From: Echinostoma caproni
Lineage: Eukaryota; Platyhelminthes; Trematoda; Plagiorchiida; Echinostomatidae
NCBI GenBank assembly: GCA_900618425.1
Contig: UZAN01040925.1
Location: 2,795 to 66,794, forward strand
DNA: 64,000 nucleotides
Reading direction: 5' to 3'
The notes under the pieces were generated by a model, which was given only the letters and a program-made list of their open reading frames with translations, made no database searches and was not told the DNA's origin. This document shows positions 3,225-62,440 of this stretch, in pieces. Every line of letters starts with the position of its first letter. Position 1 is the first letter of the stretch. The position numbers were made by a program, and so were the translations under genes.

Positions 3225-4165
3225 AAGGATCAGATTGGTAGAACATTTTAGTGAACTTCTCAGTCATCCGCTGGACAATCCGGCGGATATTCATCCTGAT
3301 TCGGCGTCCCATATGACGTCGACTGTGATCCTTCAACGTCAGCGGAAATAGTCACAGTGATCGGTCGCTTGAAGTCTGGCAAGGGCATGGGCGCAGACGG
3401 AATCCCGGCAGAAATATATAAGAAATGCCTCCTGATGGTCATCCAGCTGTTTCACTCTCCCTTTCGCTCTCTTCGGGAGGCCGAAACATGTCCAGCCGAT
3501 TGGAAGCCCTCGGTTTTGCTTCCGTTCCCCAAGAAAGGCTACAAGACACTATGCGAGAATTATCGGGGCATCAGTCTGCTAGACGTGGCTGCACTAGCGT
3601 TTTTCCAACTCGTGCCTAATCGTTTTCCTACAGTGAGGCATGAAAGTACTCGGCCAAATCAAGGAGGCTTCCAACCCGGAAGAGGATGTGTCGATCAGAT
3701 TTTTATCCTAAGGCGAATTCCGGAACACCGATACAATTTTCGGTGCCCTACCGCTACGTGCTTCATTGACTTTCGCGCCGCATTCGATTCAGTGGGCCGT
3801 GAGTGACTGTGGAAGATAATGCTTGAAGATGGAGTCCCTGCAAAGTTCAATATATTGAGATGGTATTACACCCAAATCAAAGCCCGTATCCGTGCTTACG
3901 GCGAAGAGTCTCATCCCTTCGATCTGAGATCAGGAGTAAGACAATGATGGTTGCTATCGTCAGTGTTGTTCAATTTCGCTGCTGATTGGATTCTGCGTCG
4001 GGCAATGTCGCCTACAAGGGGGCAAGTAAAAACGTGACGACGCTATTCGAAGATGTCGACTGACTTGGCCTACGGATAGTGTACAGCACCCGTCAATGGA
4101 AAAACAACTGGATCGACATTTGCAAGGATCTTGCAGGCGAGTGCCAATCATGGACGGCGGCAATC
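3225..4165 (+). pseudogene. RTE-like LINE reverse transcriptase domain
   Basis: Continuation of the LINE beginning near 2130. Frame 3357-3806 reads KSGKGMGADGIPAEIY, LPFPKKGYKTLCENYRGISL, RPNQGGFQPGRGCVDQIF and CFIDFRAAFDSVGRE (RT motif A with its Asp). Past a stop the sequence gives SGVRQ, a stop codon where the motif B glycine is expected, then SSVLFNFAADWILR. Motif C (normally YADD after DLA) reads DLAYG followed by a stop, so the catalytic Asp pair is gone. The element is inactive. Its 3' end is not defined; near 4195 a different piece begins. Confidence 0.85.
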
Positions 4166-18000: not shown

Positions 18001-19018
18001 TACCATGTCAATACTACTACTATCACTACTACTATTACTACTACTACTTCTACTACTACTACTACTACTACTAGTAGTAGTAGTAGCAGTAGTAATATTA
18101 GTAGTACAACGAATGCACACTAGCTATCGTAGTAGTTTTTGGTGATTTATGGCGATTGACGTGCCATTATTCAACTCCGTGATCCGATTCGGATATGGGA
18201 CGAACAGTTCGAGCAACAGCAGTGCTCGAAACTGGTTTTGCTCGACCAACCATCCCCAAAATTTGTCTAATCCTTTCGTTCATTTCACATGCAAATGGAA
18301 CTCTCCAGCTGCTCCTATCAGAAAGGCGTTAATGCGTCAAGCTCGCGACATTCGTTTGCTGCACGCAATAGCGTTTTTGACGCACAAGGATTTGCGAATG
18401 GCAAACTCAACAACACTGCCAAACACGGTAATTGGTTTGTTGTTTGACAAAATATGAGGCTATCCCAAAATCAAGAATGTGGTTGGTTTAAGCAGATATG
18501 ATTCACAAAACACATCCATTTTCATGGTGAAACGTTGTTCGAAACGTGATTTTTTTCACTGTATTCATTACCATCGTGGAAATACAATAATAGTTCAGGT
18601 AAATTGAAGAAATGCTGCTAGTGAGCGTACAAGAAAGGTTTGTTAATACAGTGGGCCTTGCGTCACACACAGTCATTTTCTTCATTTCGGATTATTTGTT
18701 GATATACCTTATGGATAAATTACAAATAGCCATTTTTGTGTAAAAGAAGTAAATCACTACTTGAAAAACGCAAACTTGGTTTCAGTTTTTTGGTGTATCA
18801 AAAACAGAATGAGATATACACAACGTATCTGTATGGAATAAAGATTTCAGGATATCTGGGACAGAGAAAAACGGGTAGAAATGGCCAAACTATATAATTC
18901 AGTTTGGCATTATACTGATCTCATATTGACCATCGAAAACTTTATGGGATCCTGTAGCACATTTGTTTTGGCACCGGTAAACGTTTGGCTATCTCTAACA
19001 GAAATAAATTCAGCTTAC
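15070..19018 (-). other. SLC25A1: SLC25A1 last intron
   Basis: 3,949-bp intron. It contains a triplet repeat (18001-18106) and chance frames. The plus frames 17351-17725 and 18149-18457 resemble nothing I know. A lone ADDILICGRKC stretch near 16035-16070 looks like an RT motif but lacks surrounding support. Confidence 0.85.
18001..18106. repeat. Mirror-switched triplet repeat, (ACT)n then (AGT)n
   Basis: About 70 bases of mostly ACT units are followed directly by about 30 bases of mostly AGT units. AGT is the reverse complement of ACT, so the two halves form an inverted repeat capable of a hairpin. Confidence 0.9.
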
Positions 19019-19415: not shown

Positions 19416-20760
19416 TTATAGTTCAAGGTTAAGACAAAGTTCACTCATTGTCCACTCTTTGTTTATAAGTACACAGGCAAGATACGGTATGGGTGAATTT
19501 CGGTAGGCGTTAATTGGAAATTGAATTTGGCGGAATTGGGAGCGTGTGGAATGATGGGAACGACAATCTGTCAGTTCTGCGTGAAATGGGTGATCAGGAT
19601 CTGTGAGAATCCTCTCCGTAAATTTCACACAGGAAGTTACGTGGTACTCTGAAAGCTTTACAGCGAACTCATTCACAGGAATAGAAGAGACACAACTAAT
19701 AATAGTCAGACTGCGGCGTAAGACGTTGAAATACTGTTTGAGTAAGCCAGGAAGAATAACTGGGGTACAGAAGAGTGAGATGGAAAACACTGATAAACAA
19801 AGGTAGAAATAGCTGACTGGGATGCACGAAGTTGCCTGAGCTTTCGTATTTGAAATGATAGGAGCCGCAGTTTACCAATGAAGTTGTGGATGTGGGTTGA
19901 CCAATGAAGAGTGCCATGTGGTTACACCAAGATATTTGACCGAGTTCACCTTAGAAAAAGGATTGTTATTAATCACTGTGGGGTCTGTTGGATGTGGAGA
20001 GCAAGCAAGAATTTATAAACACTCAACCCATTTACTGGGGTTTAGGGTTAGCTCCGATAAGGAGGTGAATGACTGAATTTGATGAAGATTATCGATGAAG
20101 GAGCTTAGATCGGAGTAAGAAGAAATTGATTGGCACAGCAAAATGGCATCTACATCTTTCAAAATCCATGCAGAAGAAACACAGGGAATGTCACAAATAT
20201 AAGTGTAAAAAACTACGGGGATAGCACAGCTCCTTGAAGAACCCCGGAGTCATCGGCTAAGGGTTTAGATGAAAACTTCCTCAATCTAGTGGTTTATACT
20301 CTATCATTAAAGTAGCTGGATAGCAAAGCTAAAAACTGCTTGAGTTATCAAAGGATTCAAGTTTTTTAACAGCTTAGATCGTAGAATTGAATCAAATACC
20401 AAAGAGTAGTCCAGAAAAACACACCAAACATACTTAACTGAGTTGTTCAAAGAATTAGTGATAAAATGGGTTAGAGTAGAGACTGCGTTCACTGTTGATC
20501 TATTAGGCTTAAATGCAAACTATAACGGATCACTGGGAATGTTTATAGACTGCTGGAGGCGTTTGGGGATAGCCTATTCAGTCAATTCAAGAGCTGAAGA
20601 TGTTGGTGCTATGGGACGAAAACGTTTGAAGGGGATAGAAGATTTGGATATTTTGAGTGGTATGATTTTTCGGCCTCCAACAATCGAAAATAGTAGAAGT
20701 GCTAATGAGATTCAGATGGTGAATGTTTGTCCTGACAGGAACGAAAAAGGTACGCACTGC
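19416..20760 (-). pseudogene. Non-LTR retrotransposon RT (CR1/jockey-like), copy 1
   Basis: Minus-strand LINE inside an SLC25A1 intron. In order: VWCVFLDYSLVFDSILRSKL (motif A, 20350-20430), DSGVLQGAVLSP (motif B, about 20230-20265), LKDVDAILLCQSIS where motif C should be (YADD lost, about 20130), SFTSLSELTLNPSKWVECL (about 20040), and, in frame 19416-19790, FCTPVILPGLLKQY, RILTDPDHPFHAELTDCRSH and AYRNSPIPYLACVL, the typical C-terminal block. Several stops and shifts. A second copy of the same family lies at 61360-62440. Confidence 0.85.
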
Positions 20761-20798
20761 TGACGAGTCCCAAACAGGACGAACCAGCTGTCTAGTGC
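20754..20798 (+). ncRNA. Hammerhead ribozyme-like motif
   Basis: Stem I GCACT (20754-20758) pairs with AGTGC (20794-20798). The core CTGACGA (20760-20766) fits the CUGANGA consensus. Stem II is GTCC/GGAC with loop CAAACA (20767-20780), followed by GAA (20781-20783). Then comes a short self-complementary CAGCTG and TC before the stem I 3' strand, placing the cleavage site after GTC. The position after GAA is C where A is expected, which would disturb the pair next to the cleavage site. This is the layout of the small hammerheads found in flatworm Sm-alpha and Penelope-like elements. It is probably a weakened or inactive copy. Confidence 0.7.
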
Positions 20799-21227
20799 TC
20801 TTTGTTGGTTATCACAACCATTTTCATCGCACAAAAATGCTAAGAGATTTATTTACAATTGAAATGATTGCCCCAGCTAGGGAAGCAGCACCAAATTTGA
20901 GGAGGACTGGATGTAAATCATCCGGGCCTACCGCATACGACGAATTGCAACTACCTAAAAGTTTTAACATATCACAATGAGAATTGTTCCACGTCACAAA
21001 CATTTTGTGACCAGTAGGCTAGTACTATAGTATGTTAAAACATTCCAATTTAGTTCAGGGACACATATTGCGGTGTTTTAAAAAAATGAATATTAAGGAG
21101 ACGCCCAGTTTCCTCGATCGTGCTGCTCTCTGAAGGCATGAGGCTCACATTTGAGATTCTTCTGATTTCAGTGAATTGGAAACTATCATAAGTTTGGCCC
21201 TCGTTTGCTTTTCTTTTGCGTTTTTTC
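20799..21227. other. Intron sequence after the hammerhead motif, nothing recognised
   Basis: Sequence following the hammerhead-like motif. No further conserved block is seen before the SINE. Confidence 0.5.
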
Positions 21228-21400: not shown

Positions 21401-24122
21401 CCGTGAATTCCTTTACGGTCCATTGGTTGAACAATTTATAGACAGAAACAAAGGCTGCACAAAAATCCATAATTACGTAAAGGGGAAGTGTTAGGGTCCA
21501 CAATTAAATAAATGGTTGTTCTAGTGGTGTTGATCAAAAAATAGACTGGCAAGTCAACTTTCGAAATCAGATATGAGGTTATCCTTTCCTCATTGGTTGC
21601 TTTCAAAACAAATTGACCATTCTAATAGGATCAAGTCAGGCAAATGGGAAAATGTTTGCAAACAGCAGCGGACCGCATTTTAGCTCGCACCCTGTCCATG
21701 AGCAGATTAAACAAAAAATCATGCCTTGACGATACGTCGCGGCTCACTGTGAGTCAGTTGCATAAATTAAGCAGTTTGAAAGAAAATGACTGATTCTAAT
21801 GAAAACTTTGCTGACTTAATGAAGTTTGTATGGAAGCGGAGGAAACAACCACTATTAGTGACGTTTTCGGGACAAAAGGCAATATCAGCCGACAGAGTTT
21901 TGACTTAAGATGGTGTCAATAATTGCTGAATTTAACTTATTAAGAAACACAAATGTGAGTCACTTATAATCCATCTTTAAAGTCAAAGAGATTGTGCGAT
22001 CAGGTAACTCGATGCAATCTGTGGATGTTAGAAGATGTGGTAAACGACTTTAATGATAATAAGTTATTGGAAAACTTGGATAACTGGATAAATAAACTGA
22101 AAATGCCTCTTTCTACTCATGGTTGCAGCTCAGGTTGTGAGCTCAGTAATTGTATAGCAAACGATGTATTTCGTAGTGTATAAAACAATTCAATTGACAC
22201 AACCGTTAACCTTGTTCTTTCTTGCAGCAGATTCGGCTGCTGTAACTTGACATGGAAAAGAATCCCTCTGGATAGGATTTCACCTTTTTGGAATTCACAA
22301 GCGTGCTGACGAATGTCTCGTCCGACAGTAAAATCAGAAGCAATGCCCGATAAAAATGTGAAAAATAGTTCACCCTTTTAAAAACGTGATCACTCTAACT
22401 GACTTTGGTGGAAATAAAATTATACGAATTGATTTATACTGATTTCGTAGCAGTTATTTGTCACAAACAACGAAGGCTTTTACTTTATTCTTGGACTCTT
22501 GCAAAATTGCATCTAGAATGATGCATCCTAGATACACTCATTTGTATTTAACGTTTAAGCAATTTGGGTTATCTCCCTGAAATATTCCTGCTTTTTGGTG
22601 CTGCAGAAACAACAACGGAAAACAGCGAATATTTCCGACAAGTGATTGTTGATTGATTTGACGGGAGAAGCATAGATTTCGGAAAGATGTGATTTTTGAG
22701 TTTTGGACAAGGTTCACAAAATTTGAAAACAGGTGAACTGAGATTTTCAAGCTGAAAAATATATGATTTCAATTCTTGAAATTGCATATTTGCATTTCGC
22801 ATGTTCTTAATAATTTTCATCTGTATGGCTATAGATCAGCAAAGTTCCACAGTTAAAAATTTATTTATGAGGACTACTTTATCACGTTATGTTGTGGTTT
22901 AGAAGAACTGGATGAATCAGAACCGCTGAAAAGCTATTTGTGCTGCAGTCATAAAAAGACCAATTTGAAATATTGGAATTCTGAGATTCTAATCTCCACA
23001 CCTCTCATTGTATTTGGAAGACTGTTGTATAGTTATTCGTTGTGAAGTCCTGGGGTTAGTAGCGGTTTCCTAGGTGTAGTCACTGCACCTACCGTAAAAG
23101 TTTGCCACCGAGTTGGTGCGAAAGAATACTACTGTTGTTTGTCCGAATTGTGTATTTACGAAGATGAGCCGGGCAGCGTTCCGTTACCTTTCTCGGATTC
23201 GATCTCCGGTTAGGTAGATGAATTTCTGCTGCTATTGAGACAGTTAAATTACAAACGCTGTATTGTGCGTTTAATCTCTTCGATTTCCGCATAGTTCGCT
23301 CTCTACACGAGAAAATTCATCCTATATTAAAAATAAAATCCTTTATTGTTCTCGTATGCATATTAAACAGGATCACTGTAAAAGACCTAGCCAATTTTTC
23401 ATACTTCTCCATATTAAAATAATCACGTTTTTAATTGTTTTGGCTTAGGAGCGAGGCTGAGTATTTGATGATGGTTTTCTTTTAGTGAAGAGACAGACAA
23501 AATATAAGAACAACTCTTCAAGTTTGTTTTAAACATGTATCTTATGAGGATCAATGTTAAAATTTCCATTGCCAGGAGAATGTCTGATTGTCAAATAGGA
23601 TTATTAAACTCAGAATATTCGTTTTACATGTGGAACTAAAATAGTTCGTGCCTGCACCATTACCTTTATAAATACCTAACTCAGAGTTCAATCTTTTTTT
23701 CGATGGGAACATTTTTAGGGAATAGTCACACTTAGGTAGCGAATATTGTTGACTTGGTGGTAGCTATATGTTTAACGGTACATGAGGCTGAAGAGACGTT
23801 TTAGCCAGTTAATACGACTAATAATCAAGAGAGGCTGCTCATCTGTAACTAATGGATGGATTTATCATCAAATTAGTTGTGTAAAATCATTGAAATCTAT
23901 AGTATCAGGAAAACAAAATGCACACATGTATGTTAGAGGTTTCGCTTCTTTTTATAATAAATTTGTCAGTTCCTTTTAGAGAGAACACGGAACATAGGTC
24001 TTGGGCTATCAAAACAAAATAGAGAAATGTCGATCAGCAGCATGAGAGACCGCAATGCTTTTGTTTACGCCTACGAGAACATACTAACATAGTTGAATAA
24101 ATTAATAAATAAAAAGAAATTT
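21401..24122. other. Intron sequence, nothing recognised
   Basis: AT-rich intron sequence of SLC25A1. A tRNA-like B-box string (GGATTCGATCTCC, near 23196) has no convincing A box or cloverleaf. Confidence 0.5.
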
Positions 24123-24208
24123 CTTTTTACTTCCTTTTTATTTATTGAGTATAAAAATGTACAGTCAACCTTCAGGAAGGGGGGGGGCAGCGACCATACA
24201 AAGGTTGG
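24123..24208 (-). repeat. SINE 3' part, same family
   Basis: The minus strand shows CAACCTTTGTATGG, CTTCCTGAAGG and the tail ACTCAATAAATAAAAAGG then AAGTAAAAAG, matching the last 85 bases of the copy at 58108-58290. The tRNA-like head is missing. A run of nine or more G follows at 24180-24188. Confidence 0.7.
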
Positions 24209-27741: not shown

Positions 27742-28014
27742 CCCTTCTTCGCCTAGCTGATCAGGGTGACAAAACAGGTCTTACTGTGCTTTTGTATGTG
27801 TGTTTATAAGTGAGAAATGACTGACTGTTTCAAATTACACAACGTTGATGACCAACATAATGAATAATCGAAGAGATGCCTGCGGCTGAACATGCATGCG
27901 GTTATTCCGGTGGCTTGATAGTGCATATTCGGTTGCACATAAGACTATATTAATGGACAATTGTATAAAACTAGCAAGAATTTCGCCGTGTCTAACTAGA
28001 GCAAGTGACGCGTA

Positions 28015-28570
28015 AACTTAAAATCTACAAAGTACTAGGCAGCCGTTTTAATCTGCCTGTGTCTAATCAGCAGTGTGANNNNNNNNNNNNNNNNNNNNNN
28101 NNNNNNNNNNNNNNNNNNNNNNNNNNNNNNNNNNNNNNNNNNNNNNNNNNNNNNNNNNNNNNNNNNNNNNNNNNNNNNNNNNNNNNNNNNNNNNNNNNNN
28201 NNNNNNNNNNNNNNNNNNNNNNNNNNNNNNNNNNNNNNNNNNNNNNNNNNNNNNNNNNNNNNNNNNNNNNNNNNNNNNNNNNNNNNNNNNNNNNNNNNNN
28301 NNNNNNNNNNNNNNNNNNNNNNNNNNNNNNNNNNNNNNNNNNNNNNNNNNNNNNNNNNNNNNNNNNNNNNNNNNNNNNNNNNNNNNNNNNNNNNNNNNNN
28401 NNNNNNNNNNNNNNNNNNNNNNNNNNNNNNNNNNNNNNNNNNNNNNNNNNNNNNNNNNNNNNNNNNNNNNNNNNNNNNNNNNNNNNNNNNNCAGCAGTGT
28501 GAATCCATCGACTCAACCGGGGATTGAAACCGGGACCTCGCCGGAAGCATACTACTCATGCTGCCACCAC
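28015..28570 (-). repeat. Sm-alpha-like hammerhead SINE copy, split by an N gap
   Basis: On the minus strand: A-box-like TGGCAGCATGAG (28555-28566), B box GGTTTCAATCC (28521-28531), then CACACTGCTG at the gap edge. On the far side of the gap the same TCACACTGCTG recurs, followed by CTGATTA (hammerhead core with one change), a degraded stem II, AAAACGGCTGCC and TAGTAC, which parallels the plus-strand hammerhead at 20754-20798. Layout matches the copies at 57040-57160 and 60978-61140. Confidence 0.65.
28079..28491. other. Assembly gap (413 N), probably spurious
   Basis: Run of N. Both edges carry the same 11-mer CAGCAGTGTGA. Merging the two sides over it gives a repeat unit of the same length as the copy near 61018. 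Confidence 0.99.
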
Positions 28571-28634
28571 AAAAATGATCAAACTGAGCATCATTTTCGA
28601 TAACTTCCCCCTAGGGCTAATACAGTTATACAGT

Positions 28635-28838
28635 CATACATAGGGTTCAGAATGGCCAAACTAGTGTAGTGGTTTGATGTGATGAATTTGATTGGTTGAT
28701 TGTGATCTTGTGATAATGGATTTGGTAATGAAAAAACCATGCCCTTTCATTTCCAAACCACAATGAGATCACAATCAACCAATCATATTCATCATATCAG
28801 ACTATTACGCTAGTTTGACAACTTTGAACCCTGTATGT
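28635..28838. mobile_element. Foldback (MITE-like) inverted repeat
   Basis: About 204 bp whose two halves are reverse complements for at least 70 bp at high identity. The left arm holds TTGATTGGTTGATTGTGATC and the right arm GATCACAATCAACCAATCAT; outer parts TAGGGTTCA and TGAACCCT also pair. Identity fades toward a short centre. No coding capacity. The target-site duplication is not clear. Confidence 0.8.
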
Positions 28839-30396
28839 AACTATATTAACTCGAGTAGGAAGTTATCGAAAACAAATTTGGTTGCTACAGTGTTTTCCTA
28901 ATGTCACGATGGAAATACTCATTGAGTTTATCATTTCCTTTATAAACGCATAGCAGAACTAACATTTGTGAGCTTAATGCAGTTATCTCACTTTGTGCAT
29001 CACAACAGTAGCCTCCATGGTTATGACTTGATTGAAAACATTCCTATTGTAAAAAAAATCACCCATTACTCTCATGTAATTTCTTACTAAAATTGCTTCT
29101 CCGACGGTCAGGGAGTGGTAGCGCTACTTGGAATAAGATATATTGTACTTGAATGTAAGTTTCACGTAAAATGCTGACTCGACAAATTATAAACTTGACG
29201 AAGCTGAAGAAATACATATCGATCGACTGGTTTAAATACTGCCCATCATCACCTTGGATAACAGAAAACCACCATATACCTATTGTATTCAAAATTTACC
29301 GTTCGCTAGCCTAAGAGTGCGCGAAAACCTTTTTTGGCAGCATACATCGCCATAATCCTCCGGGTGTTGCACCCTTGTTTGACGCAAGTTGCTTTTCACT
29401 TTTGATCACACATCGCAGATGCAAAACATCTCAACAGGTTGCTTTTGATTGAGCGTTTTCTATCTCCGTCAAACCATCAACAAGACAAAAATGTAGGAAG
29501 TATTCGAAAGTATACGCAAAATGATAACAGCATGTTCCAGTTTCAGCCTAAAGAATCAATAACCTTGCACATCTGCGAGGTGAATTTAATCTTTGTATTT
29601 TGGCCCCCCAAGTCGGTTTGCATAGTAGTCGGTTTGCATCTGTGTGACTGCTCACTTTGGTTTCTTTACATTGCGATACAAATTTGTTTGATCAATGAAT
29701 AATTGATTAATGGGCTGAGAGCAACCTTAACCAACAGGTAAAAATGAGGATAATCTGAATGTACGTAGAAGGAGAGTATTATACTCGATAGATACTGCGT
29801 ACGATATCAATATATACTTACTCGGTTATTCAGCCGTCGCCGTCGTCTATGCTCAGACAACAGATCTTCGAGATCGACCTACTCAGTACACATAGATATA
29901 ACATTTGAACATACGATGAAGACTTATATAATTACCATAATACTTTTACTCTAAGTTTTTATTTCAACAATGTGAAAGGAACAATTATNNNACAATTATT
30001 AATTTCATAGTCCGTATCTGCATGACCTAGCTTTAATCTCTTAACTAGAAAGTTCTGCATAGGCCAGCAACACGAAATAATTTAGTCTTAATGAAATTTA
30101 CACAGGTGGTAATAAATGGGAAAACAAATAAAGTAAGGTTAAGAGGGAAACGGTATTTGGCTGGACTAAAACGCACATCGGAACTCAATAATTTGATAAA
30201 AAACATACATTCATCATTTAATAGTCGAAATTAGTGGCTAAACGTTTTGTAAAATACAATAACCCTTGAAGAATTATGATGCAATTTATTGTTTTTTCCG
30301 CAGTATTATTATTCTCACATTTGACGGAATACTGGTCGATTAGGACGTGTTAAACTGTTAACTGTTTTTTTTTGTTAATATGAGCTAAACTTTTCC
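28839..30396. other. Intron sequence with a 3-N gap at 29989-29991
   Basis: No gene recognised. The 3-N gap is flanked on both sides by ACAATTAT, suggesting overlapping contig ends. Confidence 0.6.
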
Positions 30397-55112: not shown

Positions 55113-57029
55113 GCAAGTCATCGAATCACATCAAAGATGGAGAATATACTGTTCAAAGAAACAACGTTTATACAATAACCAACGTGAAATTAGATCTAAC
55201 AATGGTCTGACGTTTTGGTTAACTCTACGCTAGTCGTATTCTTCGGACTTAACACAATCTTCTCTAAGTTTCATTCTCATTTGTATAACCAGACCTCACA
55301 AGATTTCTGGCGCTGTGTTTTGGTTAGCTCCTAGATTTCAATAGGTATAAAGCAATGGTTCTGGTCATGAATATGGGTTTGACTCGTTGGTAACTCGCTT
55401 ATTATTCATATGTCAAATAGTCATTATTTATGAAAGAATTCTCCTTGATGGTTGAAAAAAAACCTGAACAGCTGATTCAACCTGTTGGGCTTCTTCAACA
55501 GTGAGNGTTTGCTCATACAGCGACTAGAACCACCAGTTTTGGGGCAAGGCATTAACCTTGAGTTATACTGTCAACATAGGGTAATTTGCTAAAGGTGCAG
55601 CTCAGAGGTAAAGGTTTGGCCTCCTAGCCCAATTAGGATAATATATCTGAACCGAATTATTTGATGCTTTTCTTGTCTTGGAAGTCGTTTGCGCGCATGG
55701 TCGTTCCTTGAGGGATTGATTCAGTTTGTTACCCATCTGTCACTTGGACTTCGTCTGAGATCCTGAATAAAGATTACAGAATACTAAAATCCAATGCACC
55801 AAGGATACTTATGAGGCCCAAACAGTAGGAGAAATGGACTGCTTTTATGATCCACGGAATTCCTGTGACCTGATACGACTAGGTATTGTTTAAAACCATG
55901 AGCAGATGTAAGCCACGGATCAACACCTATTTCTGAGTGGATTAGGAGTTGCATCCAGACCACAGCGGAAGCGTTCAGAATGTGCCTACATAAACTGTAT
56001 TTGGTTTGAGAAACAATTGGAACAAAGAATTGGTCTCCGGTAACCATCACAACACTCTACGCAGTCATTTCTTCAATGTCCTAATGGCTTGAATCAATGC
56101 GTATGTGTGACAACCGAATTGCGAGAAATATGCCGTCTCAGAACTGAAATATCATTTTTCTTCTCGTTATTTAATGAATCTGTTCCAGACAAATACTTAG
56201 ACATAAAATACGTTACGCTAGCCTGTGTCTGAAACATAGAAAACAAATTTATTCCCTACTGTTTTTCTTAATGAGTGGTAATAGTAGATTCAGACAACAC
56301 CACTTTGATCATGTTGCTCGTGACATTTTTTCAGATATCACTCAACGAACTGGAAATGTTTGATTCTCATAAGTGTTCCTCACCTCATGCATAATGAGAG
56401 CTGTTGGTTCCGCTCTACATGAGGTTAGAAATCCTAGTGTATCTCAATAAATAAAATTTATCATTATTACTCAGGTGGTTTTATATGAATAAGATAGTTA
56501 ATTTACTGTTGGTCCTCATGCATATTCCTGAAGGTCAAGCAAAATAAATTGCTCATTCTTCCATCCACGATTACACTTGTTATTTGTTCAGCATGTCGTT
56601 AGGATAAAATAGGGATGGCCGTCAAAAATAATTACTTAGGAGAGTTTAGTTGGCCAAACCAAGAGAGACTATTAATTAAAGTCCTATCTAGCCGAACTCA
56701 AAATCTCTGTATGAGACACAACGACCAATTTGCAATATGGGTGCCTGGAGTCTTTAGATTTCGGTGCCTAAACACCAAGGACATTATTCGCAGTATCTGT
56801 CACCACTATTCAAACTGTTCATTAGAGTAAATGAGGGAAAGACCGTAGAGAAATACTAGTTCCCATGGCTTTGGACTTCGAAAATCCACCGCTGGAATGA
56901 AGCAATAATATCAATCTAGACTAATCATTGTTGCTCTCAATGGAAACTGTTGCCACGGAAATTTAATTGGAAATAGCCTTAGCAACTAGTCATTTCAACA
57001 CTTATGGTAATTTTCGTCATCTATAAAGC
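55113..57029. other. Upstream flank of SLC25A1, nothing recognised
   Basis: No TATA box or coding match seen. The minus frame 55784-56050 and plus frame 56615-56830 are unassigned. Single N at 55505. Confidence 0.4.
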
Positions 57030-57039
57030 AAATGAAGTG

Positions 57040-57160
57040 TGAACTGCAAAGCAAGAAAGAACTGTAAAACCATTGGGACCTAATTAGGTCTCATCAGAAG
57101 TGCCGATCCGCCGATTTAAATAAAGATCGAACACAAATCTTTACAGATAGAATGCAAGCA
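57040..57160 (-). repeat. Sm-alpha-like hammerhead SINE copy
   Basis: On the minus strand: B box GTGTTCGATCTTT (57122-57134), 18 nt, GCACTT (57098-57103), perfect core CTGATGA (57091-57097), then a perfect stem II GACCTAATTAGGTC (57077-57090). The expected GAAA after stem II reads CCAA, so it is probably inactive. Confidence 0.65.
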
Positions 57161-57769
57161 TAATACCAGACAGCTGATCAGACCGTTTTTATTTTCTCCA
57201 TACACGACGTAATAAATGCCAACACTTGCTTATTAAATTACTCAAGACTTCAAGACCGGCCCTTCCGTCAAAGCTACGATGTTTTCGCCATTTTTCTATT
57301 TCTCTTCTCCAGAATGCTAAAAGGACTGTTTTGATTAGAAGCTCACGGAAAGCCAACTTTTGTTAGGAGCATAACTGAAATTATTGTAGCGCGGTAAATG
57401 CGACCTTTGAATTTATATGTAACGTCAGCCAACTGCGAGAAAACGGAGGAAGTAAATGTGACGAGACTAGCAGTAATGAAATCCAGAGTGGTGAGGGGGC
57501 TGAGAGGAAAAAGGCTAAATTAAATAACGTTTGAGAGATTTCGAGCCCTCCGAAAAGGAACGTACACAAATTTTCATCTCTCTAGTTCGATAAGTTGCGT
57601 TTTTAAGTATTATCCCCTGGTTCTAAATTTTGTCCCACTGAAACACAATTTCACCGAAATGGGGATAAAGACAGTTTGAAAGCCTCATGCACCAACTTAC
57701 TGATTCAACGCCTAACCACTCTCATCTAGTTGCTTAGCTCAAAATATCGCTCGCTCGCTATTGCCACTA
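57161..57769. other. No gene recognised
   Basis: Short flank between the hammerhead copy and the Penelope-like element. A minus frame (57381-57569) is unassigned. Confidence 0.4.
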
Positions 57770-59510
57770 GTACGAAAATACACGAAGCCAGGCAAAAACT
57801 CTTTTTATAAAGAAACATCGACGCCGTCAATAATCATACTTCAAACAAGAATATCATAACTTCTCCATCAGACAAGGGAGCTGGATGTGTAGTACTTTAT
57901 AAAACAAATTTTTAATCTAAACTGTGGAAAAGTCTCAGCAACTCCCCTAAATTTTCTGCTGAACTACATGGGAAAGACATGACGGCGAATACGAAATCTA
58001 TAATGATGCCCATCTTGATAAAACTCAAAGTAGAAGGTCATATATTGCATGCAGTTTTCGAAAAGGTTTTGCTGACTACATGCTCATTGCTGCAGGCCTA
58101 TGGTTTGGACGGTGGTGGCCAAGTGGTTAGGTCACCAACTTGTGACCTAGGAGCCCTGAGTTCTAACGGCTCCGCCGCCCGTCTTCCCTATATCCGTATT
58201 TTCCCAGGCAGCCTTTGTATGGCCGTGTCCACCATCCTGAAAGAGGACTGCACATTTGCATATTCAATAAATAAAAAGGAAGTAAAAAGATACAAAGAAA
58301 CGACACCTAAGATGCAAAAACAAAGGGCCGTATACAATCAATATTTGATATGTTATCTACTCCATATCACTTTATCATCTATTGGATCGCGGAACGTCTA
58401 GAGCGAGTACGCAAACTGGATAGTAAAATATAGTCCAAAGTATTTGTTCAACTTCATAGAGAAGATAGAAAACGTAATATTTTCAATTAAACTATGATGT
58501 CTTTTGACGTGATATGTGTAACCACCTCATATTCTACAGCGTTTATATCGAAATTGCGGTGAATAAACTGAAATAGCTGATTCTCAGATACACACTTAAC
58601 GTACAATTTTTCAAAGACCAGTTCTCCGGAAACGCAACTGGTTAACTGCGGGTCTTCACTAAATCCCATATTAGCTGATATTTTTCAGCCAAACTAGAGA
58701 ATGACAATTTGAAAGAGACACTTCGAGATCTAAACCTATATTTTAGAGAACTCAACAGTACTTTGATCGTTTGTGATTCTCAAATTAGCGACATGCAGCC
58801 TTTAAACAATTTCAATAAATGTCATCTAGTTAAAAAAAGCGGAAAACTATCCGTCTTAGATGTGTTATTAACTATGCAAGACGGTGGCAGCATACAAAGA
58901 AGTATTTCTCGTAAAACACTGGGGTTGTACAGTATGCTTGCTATTTTAGCCTCGTCTACCTGAAATACAAATGTAACTTGGTTCAGTCTTTATCACATCA
59001 ATTGCGAGCAGTTCGGGGTACGTTTTATTTATGGAAGTACACCGGTCAAATGGCTACCCACAAGCTTTTATAGATAAACATATGCGTCTGAATACCAACA
59101 CGATCAAGTCCCTACCGCTTTTTGCAGCAGAGTTTTCATTACCGTTTCGTTTACGGACGACGATGCTTTGGGACATCTCAAATCAAATCTAAAGTAATAT
59201 CTGCATTTCAACCTTATATTTTACTACCACTTCCTGTTCCAGCAATTAAAATATAAGCTACCCATCAGTTCAAATTTCTCGTATTATATTTTTTGACTTG
59301 TAGTGTGCAACCCATTGGATATACGACCAGGCGATTATCGAAAAGTATTGTTGAGTATTGCCCTACAACCCTCTCCACAGGAACGGTTATGAGCATTTGC
59401 AGACTGATTTACGGTCATCTCGTTGATACCGGGTGCTTTGTGAACAAATTAAATGCATTCAAACTAATTCGCACTATACCCCGAAAAGGTGCTAAATAAA
59501 TAAGAGTGTG
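57770..59510 (+). pseudogene. Penelope-like element (RT plus GIY-YIG), interrupted by a SINE
   Basis: In order: SPSDKGAGCVVLYKTNF (about 57860-57915); MMPILIKLKVEGHILHAVFE and LLQAYGL (58000-58105); a SINE; SPKYLFNFIEKIENV (58435-58480); CDSQISD after RELNST, where the catalytic YVDD should be (58750-58790); GKLSVLDVLLTMQDGGSIQR (58840-58900); NGYPQAFIDKHM (about 59050-59085); then IGYTTRRLSKSIVEYCPTTL and GHLVDTGCFVNKLNAFKLI (59310-59465), the GIY-YIG endonuclease with YIG as PIG. Many stops and shifts. RT motif C is lost. The element keeps nearly full domain order, so it is the most complete copy here. Confidence 0.88.
58108..58290 (+). mobile_element. tRNA-derived SINE nested in the Penelope-like element
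   Basis: A box TGGCCAAGTGGTTAG (58116-58130) matches the Pol III consensus well; a B-box-like GAGTTCTAACGGC follows at 58158-58170. The body ends with ATTCAATAAATAAAAAGG and AAGTAAAAAG. It interrupts the RT coding region right after the AYGL motif, so it inserted after the Penelope-like element. Confidence 0.85.
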
Positions 59511-60977
59511 CCTTTTAACCGAGGCTGAGGCAGTTTTTATGTGCATTTCTAATCCCAAACTAGCAAGCAAAAGAATCTTGTCCAGAGAATGTTGTTGTCC
59601 TGATTTGGAGAGCGGATAGATTGTATATAAAGGGAAGCATCTAGCCTCCTCCCCTCCCCCTACTCGGTAGCATTTACCACAGTTACGTTTTTCTCCACTG
59701 TCCCTTCCGAATTATATCTCAAGCTATGCATTAGTATATCTTACTCAACTTCGTCTCGCTTTCTCAGCTTTGCTTAAAACTTTCATTGAATTCAGTCCAA
59801 TACTCAGCCGTTTTTTCATTTTTCATTTTTCCTTTTATCCTCTACACCACTTTGGCTTTGATTATTGCTAGCCTTATCACATTCACCTGCTCCGTTTTCT
59901 CACTTCTGTAACTGTTATAAACTGAACTCTAATCGGTCTTCCGGATATCAGTACTAAGATAACCTCATAAGTGCAATCGCCTGTTGCAATTTGGGGAAGA
60001 AATTTGTTCGCAAACATGGTTTTTATACCTCTATGTATGTGTAACTCTTCAATGCCCTATCATATTTTTGCACTTCAAGTAGTACGAGTCTTCAAAAACT
60101 TTCATTAAAAAAGTCAGTAAGTGATAAGTTGATAAATTGGTTAAATGTGAATCTTTCATTACAATCTTTTTAAACCATTAATTTTCCTGGAAAGACTGCT
60201 TATGCATAGCTTAGCAACACAATATTTGACAGTGAATAAGTTTGGTGTAATTTTTCCAAAATGTTTGGGATTGAAGACTAAAACATAATAATATCAATCA
60301 CAAAGATTTTAACCTAGGTAACAGTAAAGCCAAACCTCTGATCAATTGTTTTTATTATTTTGCCGTTGTCGTAAGTTTTATTGCTGTTTTTTGGCAATTT
60401 ATCTATTTGAATTATTTTCTAAAGCTCTAAGAATGAATTTGATACAAGTGCAACTAATATTCACCAGGATGAAGCCTCTAATAAACTTTTACTAATTACG
60501 AAAAACATATGATATAATGATATCTCTGAAGACATCCAAATAGCTAAGAAGCGGGAAAAGATTACATAGTATATTGCATAGCTTTTGAAAGTAAACGATA
60601 CGATCTTGACAGGTTCACCATTAGTATTTCTCGAAACAAACAAACAAAACCTGTGATAAGTCAAGTAAATCTCCCAGCTTTTAAGAGATTCTAAGGATTT
60701 CGATGGTTAGAACGTAGACTCTATCATACGACAGATTTGAAAATGAAATGGTGATATCAGTAGATCATAGCATATCATATTAAGGAAACTGTATTGAATA
60801 TTCATTTTTTAATTAGTGTTTAGACTGTGCAATCCGAAACCTCATCAGTAAACAGCAGCGGCAGACGTGAGGCCAAGCCATGAGACTTTGAATAAGCGTG
60901 GCAGAGGATTTAACTCAATTTTATAATGAATTTCGCGGTGTACGGAGTAAATAAATCATAAAATATAAAACTAATAA
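59511..60977. other. No gene recognised
   Basis: AT-rich with a pyrimidine-rich stretch at about 59640-59880. No domain recognised. Confidence 0.45.
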
Positions 60978-61140
60978 GCACTGGTTAGTCATTTTTTATC
61001 TGATTGGGTTTCATCAGCAGTGCGACACCATTAATCCAACTGGAGGTCGAACCCAGAACCTCACAAGTAGAGCACACGCACTTTCATGTAACAAGTGTCC
61101 GGGTTAGAAGGTTTAAAACCGAAACATGAGCCTAGAGGCT
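60978..61140 (-). repeat. Sm-alpha-like hammerhead SINE copy
   Basis: On the minus strand: B box GGGTTCGACCTCC (61042-61054), 18 nt, stem I GCACTG (61018-61023), perfect core CTGATGA (61011-61017), a degraded stem II, and the stem I partner CAGTGC (60978-60983). The GAAA segment reads AAAA. Stem I is a perfect 6 bp. Confidence 0.65.
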
Positions 61141-61359
61141 AGTGCTGAGATAATCTAGGTGTGATAGCATTAACAAGCTTCCAAAGTTTGGCTGTGCTGC
61201 ATCATGTATATGACCAAAATGAGAAACGGTCTGATCAGCTGCCCGGTTATAATCAGCTTACTATAGTTGCGTCTTACTTGTGTTGTCCCGGAATTGATCA
61301 ATGGATTTGCACTGTTAATAATGCCTAAACACTCAGAAACAGTTATTAAGTTTTTGATC

Positions 61360-62440
61360 GCTTTTTGGTTTACACTTTGTCAGATCCAGGAATAGAAAGA
61401 ATAGAATAGAATAGAATGGGAGAGACACGACGGATAATGATTGGACCGTAGCGTAAGACTTTGAGATCCTGTTTAAATAAGCAGGGAACGATAAATGTGG
61501 GAAAGCAGAGTAAGATAGGGAAAACACTAATAAACAAATGTAGAAATAACTGGAAACTGCCTGAGCTTTCGTATTTGAAAAGATAGGCGCCGCAGTGTAC
61601 CAATGCAGTTTTGGATGTGGTTTGACCAATGAAGATTGCTATCTGTGGTTACAGAAAGTAATTTGACAGAGATCACACTGGATAAAGGATTGTTATAAAT
61701 CACTGTTGGATATGGAGAGCGAGCAAAACTAAGTAAACACTCAGCACACTGGGGTTTATGGTCAGCCTCAATGAGGAGGGGAATGAATGAGTTTTTTCGC
61801 GATTTTCGGTGAAGGATCTAGTTCGCAGAATTTGATCAGAAAATAACGCCTTTAATTTAATTAACTCAGATTTGATAAGCCTGAATAAATACCTTACAGC
61901 TGAAACATTGTGAGACTTGTACGCACGTTCCTTTTTTCGTCGCAGCGAATTTAGTAGGGGAGAGTTTATTTTTCTGTTGGACACATAGCTTTGAACAGTG
62001 CAGCAGTAATTACAAATGGCGTTGATTGTTTAGGTGAATAGAGAAGAAGGAGATGATGAATACCGTAGAGTCCTGATGGAGAGATTCAATCAGGAGAGGA
62101 ACACTCGTAGGTGAAAAGTTACAAAAAAGAAATCTGATATGCTCAGACCGAGAGAAAGATTTAAATGCACTGTGTGAATAAACTTCAGATCGACCTAAGA
62201 GTAAGCAATGGCCATTGGCGGAAAAAGGTGGTTTTAGTTCTAAAGAATAAAAGGTTGAGTGTTTGGTGATTACTCTGTCCAGTAGAGAATTACCTCTTAA
62301 GGGAAAGTGACAGAGATCTGTCATACCTAATGATAGAAGAGAATAGGTACTATTATTGCTGAATTCTCCAACGAGTACGTGCAGGTTAATATCTAGAAGT
62401 AGGGCAATAAAAGGTATGAGCAAGTCGAAAATTGACATAC
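61360..62440 (-). pseudogene. Non-LTR retrotransposon (CR1/jockey-like), copy 2, internally deleted
   Basis: Minus-strand order: end of the endonuclease (VGEFSNNSTYSLLSLGMTDL, GNSLLDRVITKHSTFYS, frame 62010-62438), linker (INSPLLNSLRRKKERAYKSH, KLKALFSDQILRTRS, frame 61700-61984), then directly the RT C-terminal block (ECLLSFARSPYPTVIYNNPL, then VISVKLLSVTTDSNLHWSNH). The RT motifs A, B and C are missing, so the middle was deleted. The C-terminal block is collinear with 19416-20060 over about 400 bp, showing the same family. Confidence 0.85.
61397..61417. repeat. (GAATA)n short tandem repeat
   Basis: About four AGAAT/GAATA pentamer units inside the LINE. Confidence 0.7.

Follow-up and report, generated by a model that had tools for sequence, protein, structure and literature searches.

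Hammerhead SINEs of the trematode Echinostoma caproni form head-to-head pairs that may carry the footprint of Penelope-type integration

We analyzed a stretch of 64,000 nucleotides from the trematode Echinostoma caproni (assembly GCA_900618425.1, contig UZAN01040925.1, positions 2,795 to 66,794), hereafter the window, together with the draft genome it comes from (426.5 Mb in 12,689 contigs). The window holds copies of two families, A and B, of short interspersed elements (SINEs) with RNA polymerase III (Pol III)-type boxes and a type I hammerhead ribozyme. We found that sampled genomic copies of both families commonly stand as head-to-head pairs, that each pair is one insertion, and that wherever both outer 3' ends of an uncut pair could be classed, one was short and the other long. 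The elements are probably Sm-alpha-like or retrozyme-like SINEs of two families that were integrated by Penelope-type machinery. An earlier note on the window, made from the sequence alone, had pointed to three copies of one such family; it contained neither the second family nor the head-to-head pairing nor the parallel with Penelope.

Results

Two families of hammerhead SINEs

Family A was sampled by searching the genome with the Rfam hammerhead model RF00163 (gathering score 34). This search returned at least 74 matches, every one of which exceeded the gathering score (scored were the best 74 of 66,429 candidates); the 14 control genomes yielded no match. From these matches, 68 of the 74 loci were taken. 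Family B was sampled with two window copies, located near 28 kb and 61 kb, as queries. Forty places were scored for each query, of 282 and of 254 candidates, giving at least 41 matches for the 28k query and at least 44 for the 61k query, each count including the window query itself; 30 and 20 loci were taken. In the sampled loci, both families were scattered across many contigs. Unit consensuses were drafted from the copies and then mapped back onto the loci.

The unit measures about 320 nt in family A and about 363 nt in family B, and both follow a common plan of Pol III-type A box, B box, type I hammerhead and tail. The A box, B box and ribozyme lie at unit positions 150, 195 and 227 in family A and at 156, 199 and 229 in family B, with 21 nt and 19 nt, respectively, between B box and ribozyme. 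The boxes were read, without a promoter program, by comparison with what we take to be the A- and B-box consensus. In family A the A box is followed by the B box GGTTCGAGTCC, about 21 nt, then GCACTG-CTGACGA-GTCC-CAAACA-GGAC-GAAA-CAGCTGTC-CAGTGC, and then the tail; the head is missing from some copies. Family B has the same plan, with GACC/GGTC as stem II and with different head and tail sequences. Stem III consists of four pairs and is loop-less in both families. In themselves, families A and B add new members to a type of element already known. No tRNA was found in the SINE head by ARAGORN (L001-L008) or by Rfam at E<=1 (eight loci), so the label "tRNA-like" of the earlier note would refer to the A and B boxes.

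Many genome loci carry both the box and the ribozyme, as the earlier note had expected of a real family, and the ribozyme is intact in many of the sampled copies. Of 59 family B ribozyme regions, 57 were readable without gaps, among them 26 with a complete core and two identical to the consensus. Two family B ribozymes score above the Rfam gathering threshold (L112 with 43.9 bits and L104 with 43.2 bits), and one arm of L105, with 24.8 bits, falls below the cut-off. We examined stem pairing over 80 sequences (56 of the 57 family B hammerheads, 23 of the 68 family A hammerheads, with row L030 counted as broken, and one from the window). Standard pairs occupied 86.7% of the cells, compared with 14-38% for slid structures. 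One stem II pair is A-U in 53 sequences and U-A in 21. This pair splits the families and represents one family-level compensatory change, that is, one event. When the ribozyme columns of family B (copies L070-L117) are ranked by change, two of the top four (28 and 1) are CpG sites that have mostly become CpA, as deamination of methylated cytosine would give.

SINE copies are inserted as mirrored pairs

We scanned 115 loci (68 of family A and 47 of family B) for neighboring units, calling arms at blast E<=0.5. Two loci that are the window itself (L069, L099) and one duplicate (L118, of L100) were left out of the pair counts. Among units within 90 nt of each other there were 73 head-to-head pairs, with the 3' tails pointing outward, and no tail-to-tail pair. 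The 73 comprise 47 family A pairs, one of them inside a family B locus, and 26 family B pairs; a pair was present at 46 of 68 family A loci and 26 of 47 family B loci. A first, less sensitive count had given a pair in 3 of 8 family A and 25 of 47 family B composites. Purely direct composites numbered at most 6 of 55 (three '>>' and two '<<' in family B, one '<<' in family A), some of them perhaps single copies cut in two by the unit border.

The two arms of a pair usually abut, with a junction gap of -9 to +15 nt in 62 of the 73 pairs. They overlap in unit sequence by at least 40 nt in 51 of 73 pairs and by at most 15 nt in 17. The inner junctions lie at varying unit positions and the arms are variably 5'-truncated; the mirrored form therefore seems to be made at insertion. 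Identity between the arms of a pair is 84.9% (19 family B pairs), close to the 82.4% between loci (439 comparisons), and the arms are thus not fresh copying artefacts.

Of 63 testable pairs, 13 have direct repeats of at least 8 nt at their two outer ends, where 0.52 were expected from swapped flanks. At a threshold of 7 nt, there were 16 against 1.52 expected; repeat lengths ranged from 7 to 13 nt. The scan was run four times with altered windows, and these figures come from the last run. An earlier loose scan found repeats of at least 8 nt in 11 of 54 cases (control 7.9%, about 4 expected). Another, at 7 nt or more, found them in 8 of the 28 mirrored composites and in none of the 26 others (control 5.1%), and a third, in which arm borders were misplaced, in 6 of 69. 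A head-to-head pair is one insertion.

Outer 3' ends fall into a short and a long class

We then considered where the outer 3' ends lie relative to the ribozyme cleavage site. In family A, they fall mainly 35-54 and 145-169 nt past the site. In family B, they fall mainly 50-74 and 85-99 nt past it, with a minor group at 35-39 nt (6 of 65). After setting aside nine family A pairs cut by the locus edge, three of which would be short/long, 64 uncut pairs remained. Both ends could be classed in 41 of them, and all 41 combined one short with one long end (28 of 28 in family A, 13 of 13 in family B). If the ends were independent, the chance of these counts would be 3.7e-9 for family A and 1.2e-4 for family B.

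The long-ended arm is often continuous, starting before the cleavage site, passing the short end and reaching the long end without a break (22 of 24 family B arms and 17 of 41 family A arms). Such arms were not copied from a monomer opened at the cleavage site. A family A arm that passes through the short end to the long end requires a circular or tandem template. In addition, a single linear RNA read once cannot give the widely overlapping pairs. When the unit is drawn as a circle, roughly 30-65 nt separate the long-class end of family A (for example in L016, L020 and L055) from the A box that follows it.

Penelope-like elements in the same genome

The genome also contains Penelope-like elements (PLEs), with at least 150 matches scored (the best 150 of 881 candidates). 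One locus, L120, has an uninterrupted frame of 456 codons. Its named relatives are mostly flatworm reverse transcriptases, with some from rotifers (120 of 316 matches listed); the best-scoring named ones among these have 44-50% identity, and those from Schistocephalus, Sparganum, Dicrocoelium, Schistosoma and Trichobilharzia 44-49%. These relatives by themselves point to a flatworm as the likely host; a COX1 family search had no match in this genome, though it did in 8 of 14 control genomes. A Pfam search of the frame gave no family. At this locus an inverted pseudo-long terminal repeat (pLTR) adjoins a direct pLTR upstream of the frame.

The pLTRs resemble the SINE pairs in arrangement. Among 43 pLTR matches (the best 40 places of 470 candidates), the end falls at 228-246 in 19, at 256-271 in 21 and elsewhere in 3. 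Among the matches listed, all five opposite-orientation pLTR pairs whose two members share a contig are head-to-head, and all four classable ones combine a short with a long end (C5001, C4366, C5231 and C7898).

SINE copies and other repeats in the window

At three places the earlier note had described a B box and, 18-20 nt later on the same strand, hammerhead stem I with a CTGANGA-type core, and it had assigned all three to one family. We found these parts at all three places, lying on the minus strand. By eye, the B box precedes stem I by 19 nt in the copy near 61 kb and by 20 nt in those near 57 kb and 28 kb. A family B nhmmer profile built from 55 pieces, none from the window, recovered all three copies (E 6.3e-35 to 3.3e-18), and homology in the window copies extends over the boxes and the ribozyme and reaches into the tail. 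The 61k and 28k copies served as queries when the loci for the profile were collected, and their profile scores are therefore partly circular; the 57k copy was not used in this way and is an independent case of membership. The reversed window gave nothing better than E 0.31. In the hammerhead covariance search that the note had proposed, the three copies received no Rfam score, even at E<=10. This had suggested a chance resemblance, which the genome copies overturned. As far as the window itself goes, the three copies are decayed remnants of the genome-wide family B, and the window holds more family B copies than these.

The 61k copy is the left arm of a head-to-head pair. This arm lies at 60904-61071 on the minus strand (nhmmer 61080-60903, E 6.3e-35; blast 61071-60904, corresponding to -86 to +80 around the cleavage site). 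Its B box GGTTCGACCTC is at 61043-61053 (minus), 19 nt before stem I, which starts at 61023. The decayed type I hammerhead at 60978-61023 (minus) has an intact CTGATGA core, damaged stem II and GAAA, and no Rfam match. The second arm, at 61085-61377 on the plus strand (nhmmer 61130-61381, E 1.8e-35), has lost its B box and its ribozyme is dead; blast finds it in two pieces, 61085-61247 (E 4.7e-29) and 61298-61377 (E 0.065).

The 57k copy, the first in the earlier note, spans 57012-57219 on the minus strand (nhmmer E 6.9e-34). Its hammerhead at 57059-57103 (minus) keeps CTGATGA and stem II (GACC-TAATTA-GGTC) and has CCA in place of GAA; the B box at 57124-57134 (minus) lies 20 nt before the start of stem I at 57103.

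The 28k copy, the note's third, is also on the minus strand and is interrupted twice. Its head part is at 28492-28601 (nhmmer E 3.6e-23), with the B box at 28521-28531, 20 nt before the start of stem I at 28500. Its ribozyme and tail are at 27951-28078 (nhmmer E 3.3e-18), across a gap of Ns at 28079-28491. The gap has TCACACTGCTG at both edges and is probably an error of scaffolding within a single SINE copy. On the other side, a head-to-head pair of Penelope-like pLTRs lies inside the SINE at 28594-28926 (28594-28710, minus, and 28748-28926, plus; blastn with the pLTR of L131, E 4.5e-28 and 6.6e-45). The end of the head part, 28594-28601, overlaps the pLTR match. A piece at 28925-29046 on the minus strand (nhmmer 29019-28925, E 1e-6; blast 29046-28926, E 4.7e-10) is probably the upstream unit part of the same SINE, displaced by the pLTR pair.

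Further copies were found elsewhere in the window. A 5'-truncated family A copy lies at 20729-20840 on the plus strand (blast 90% over 112 nt; nhmmer E 3.5e-33). It carries the best hammerhead of the window, at 20754-20798 (plus; RF00163 43.9 bits, E 5.8e-8), with GAAC for GAAA; this is the only Rfam hammerhead in the window and is absent from the earlier note. Two family A remnants at 55440-55575 (minus; nhmmer E 1e-7) and 55595-55633 (plus; nhmmer E 0.0011, weak) are the left and right arms of a probable second head-to-head pair in the window. One further family B copy, with a dead ribozyme, is at 23191-23346 on the plus strand (nhmmer E 3.1e-13).

Two regions on the plus strand, at about 57.8-59.7 kb and 7.2-8.3 kb, are by their motifs what we take to be decayed Penelope-like elements; the one at 7.2-8.3 kb is also supported by the genome Penelope search and the search for relatives. 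The first is flanked by inverted arms of 99 nt at 57437-57535 and 59803-59901, 77% complementary, which are possibly inverted pLTRs. Inside it, at 58110-58290 on the plus strand, is another SINE-like repeat with an A box (TGGCCAAGTGGTTA) and a B-box-like motif, in which no hammerhead was seen; its tail recurs inverted at 24122-24183. A reverse-transcriptase fragment at 3300-3806 (RVT_1 E 1.4e-5, below the curated cut-off) has named relatives in trematodes, a cuttlefish and an ant. Rfam matches to microRNAs and other families at 18.0 and 28.7 kb were rejected as repeat or palindrome artefacts; a trinucleotide-repeat palindrome at 18006-18142 lies behind the spurious matches there.

Discussion

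Proposed integration by Penelope-type machinery

Two marks of Penelope-type integration are found in the SINE pairs, head-to-head ends (73 to 0) and a long tail at one end only (41 of 41 classable pairs). We propose that the SINE RNA is transcribed by Pol III and may be processed or circularised via the hammerhead. The GIY-YIG/reverse transcriptase protein of the Penelope-like elements would then insert this RNA, cutting both target strands and priming one cDNA on each. Each of the two cDNAs would have its own fixed start site in the RNA tail. After 5' truncation they would be joined at the center, leaving a mirror-image pair between target duplications. A dimeric enzyme with one RNA site per strand as the source of the short and the long end is a guess. 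The fuller proposition is that hammerhead SINEs and retrozymes are Penelope parasites, reverse transcribed twice, once per target strand, from two fixed RNA sites, so that the short/long pair would be the footprint of a dimeric Penelope ribonucleoprotein; we see about equal chances of its being right or wrong.

Several results weigh against this proposal. A further mark, cis sequence shared with the Penelope-like elements, was not found: the SINE units have no sequence similarity to 12 PLE loci, and their similarity to one PLE pLTR is at the shuffled level only. Published PLEs carry a hammerhead; here neither Rfam (11 PLE loci) nor a motif search (12 loci) found one, in stretches that may miss the pLTR. 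Two pLTR pairs, that of C7755 and that of the window at 28594-28926, are head-to-head with one end outside the pLTR classes. Among the SINEs, 23 of the 64 uncut pairs have at least one end outside both classes, 50 of the 63 testable pairs lack an 8-nt direct repeat, and 22 of 68 family A and 21 of 47 family B loci have no partner arm. The end classes of family A are about 110 nt apart, compared with a Penelope tail of 30-40 nt. The sampled loci are not random, family A consisting of top-scoring ribozymes and family B of the best matches to the window copies, and the limits of the end classes were set on the same loci later used for the pair test. In published work, the hammerhead was dispensable for insertion by the anole Penelope protein in vitro, which bears on the role of the ribozyme (PMC11167929), and the head-to-head copies of Adineta Penelope were attributed to self-priming, with an antisense template, instead of priming on two strands (PMC3846280).

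The pairs could instead stem from long interspersed elements (LINEs) of RTE- or CR1-like type acting by ordinary twin priming, with the inverted part arising as a 5' inversion of a single RNA. Repeat lengths of 7-13 nt are also compatible with LINEs, and the window contains the reverse-transcriptase fragment at 3300-3806. In human L1 inversions, according to the portion of the study used, priming of the second cDNA is internal and 46% of the cDNAs join within 20 bp; the median overlap is 12 bp, and germline Alu inversions amount to 0.02% (PMC12016303). Internal priming with small arm overlap does not match the SINE pairs, whose arms mostly overlap by 40 nt or more, with a tail end possible on both. 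Twin priming also leaves the short/long rule unexplained, and we consider a LINE origin unlikely. Penelope machinery might also have acted by self-priming (snap-back) on an antisense template rather than by one cDNA per strand, a route proposed for head-to-head Penelope copies with palindromic junctions in the part of that report consulted (PMC3846280). A snap-back copy should stop where the first arm stops, whereas the outer ends differ in all 41 classed pairs. The divergence of the arms does not separate the two routes, since arms identical at birth would drift too. We give snap-back only a slim chance.

Independent insertions, with SINEs landing beside older SINEs, would fit their density (six places in 64 kb) and arms almost as diverged as unrelated copies. 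Such insertions would have to produce the 73-to-0 orientation bias, the narrow junction gaps, the direct repeats around the whole pair and the short/long combination in 41 of 41, which makes them highly improbable. Inverted chimeras are a known artefact of assembly and amplification, and this is a draft assembly with N gaps. Against an artefact stand the divergence of about 15% between arms (19 family B pairs), the direct repeats at the outer ends and a self-comparison of 166 kb, in which seven adjacent inverted repeats lay in SINEs and one elsewhere, at a SINE border; this is a weak control that detected only a fraction of the known pairs. We regard an artefact as scarcely credible. Finally, the foldback unit might itself be the element, or the repeat a plain Sm-alpha-like satellite or SINE without special integration. 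Unit size and ribozyme type do match Sm-alpha, and the units are mirrored; the varying inner junctions and variable 5' truncation of the arms speak against a foldback unit, and we think this reading very unlikely.

What is new here is the insertion footprint in the SINEs; Penelope as the likely helper had already been proposed by De la Pena's group. Among the matches listed in a literature search, no title or abstract opening mentioned hammerhead SINEs as head-to-head pairs or a structural helper footprint in SINEs. A review states, in the part consulted, that the repeats of animal hammerhead retroelements reveal no motif pointing to their helper (PMC7761336). PLEs are described as a strong candidate because of their type I hammerheads, tandem occurrence and co-existence with retrozymes (PMC7229834, PMC7761336, in the sections used). 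If integration by Penelope-type machinery is correct, the helper of a hammerhead SINE could be assigned from genomic copies alone. A footprint common to SINE and Penelope in one genome would make the question of the mobiliser testable by counting in genome sequence, and the Penelope field would gain short non-coding insertions for reading how both strands are primed.

Comparison with known systems

The earlier note had called the family Sm-alpha type. This held for plan and unit length. As in Sm-alpha, Pol III-type A and B boxes stand upstream of a hammerhead in a short unit. Sm-alpha and Sj-alpha of schistosomes are likewise short interspersed repeats with a type I hammerhead, of 335 bp compared with about 320 and 363 nt here; Sm-alpha of S. 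mansoni has a tRNA-Gln-like head, whereas no tRNA was recognised in the SINEs here, and the portions of the Sm-alpha accounts used do not mention head-to-head pairs (PMC8490949, PMC2770079). Stem III of the SINEs is ACAGCTGT, in contrast to ACGCGCGU in the Rfam consensus.

Metazoan non-LTR retrozymes, as far as the consulted sections describe them, are similar in having a type I hammerhead, non-coding units of about 300 nt, co-existing PLEs and, in some, target duplications. They differ in forming tandem repeats, seemingly without promoters, whereas the SINEs here have Pol III-type boxes, mirrored pairs and few direct tandems (PMC7229834, PMC7761336). L1 twin priming also leaves inverted and direct cDNA between target duplications. 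In the part of the L1 study used, it starts internally and gives little overlap, unlike the SINE arms (PMC12016303).

Penelope-like elements differ in being autonomous and protein-coding, and no sequence in common with the SINEs was detected. In the parts of the reports consulted, the purified protein of anole Penelope cuts both strands and extends them, and its reverse transcriptase starts internally in the RNA at two sites, which explains the 30-40 bp tail (PMC11167929). Penelope of Adineta, in the corresponding account, resembles the SINE pairs: head-to-head is the most frequent arrangement, an optional 31-bp tail is present at one inverted pLTR, and several copies have target-site duplications of 8-10 bp (PMC3846280).

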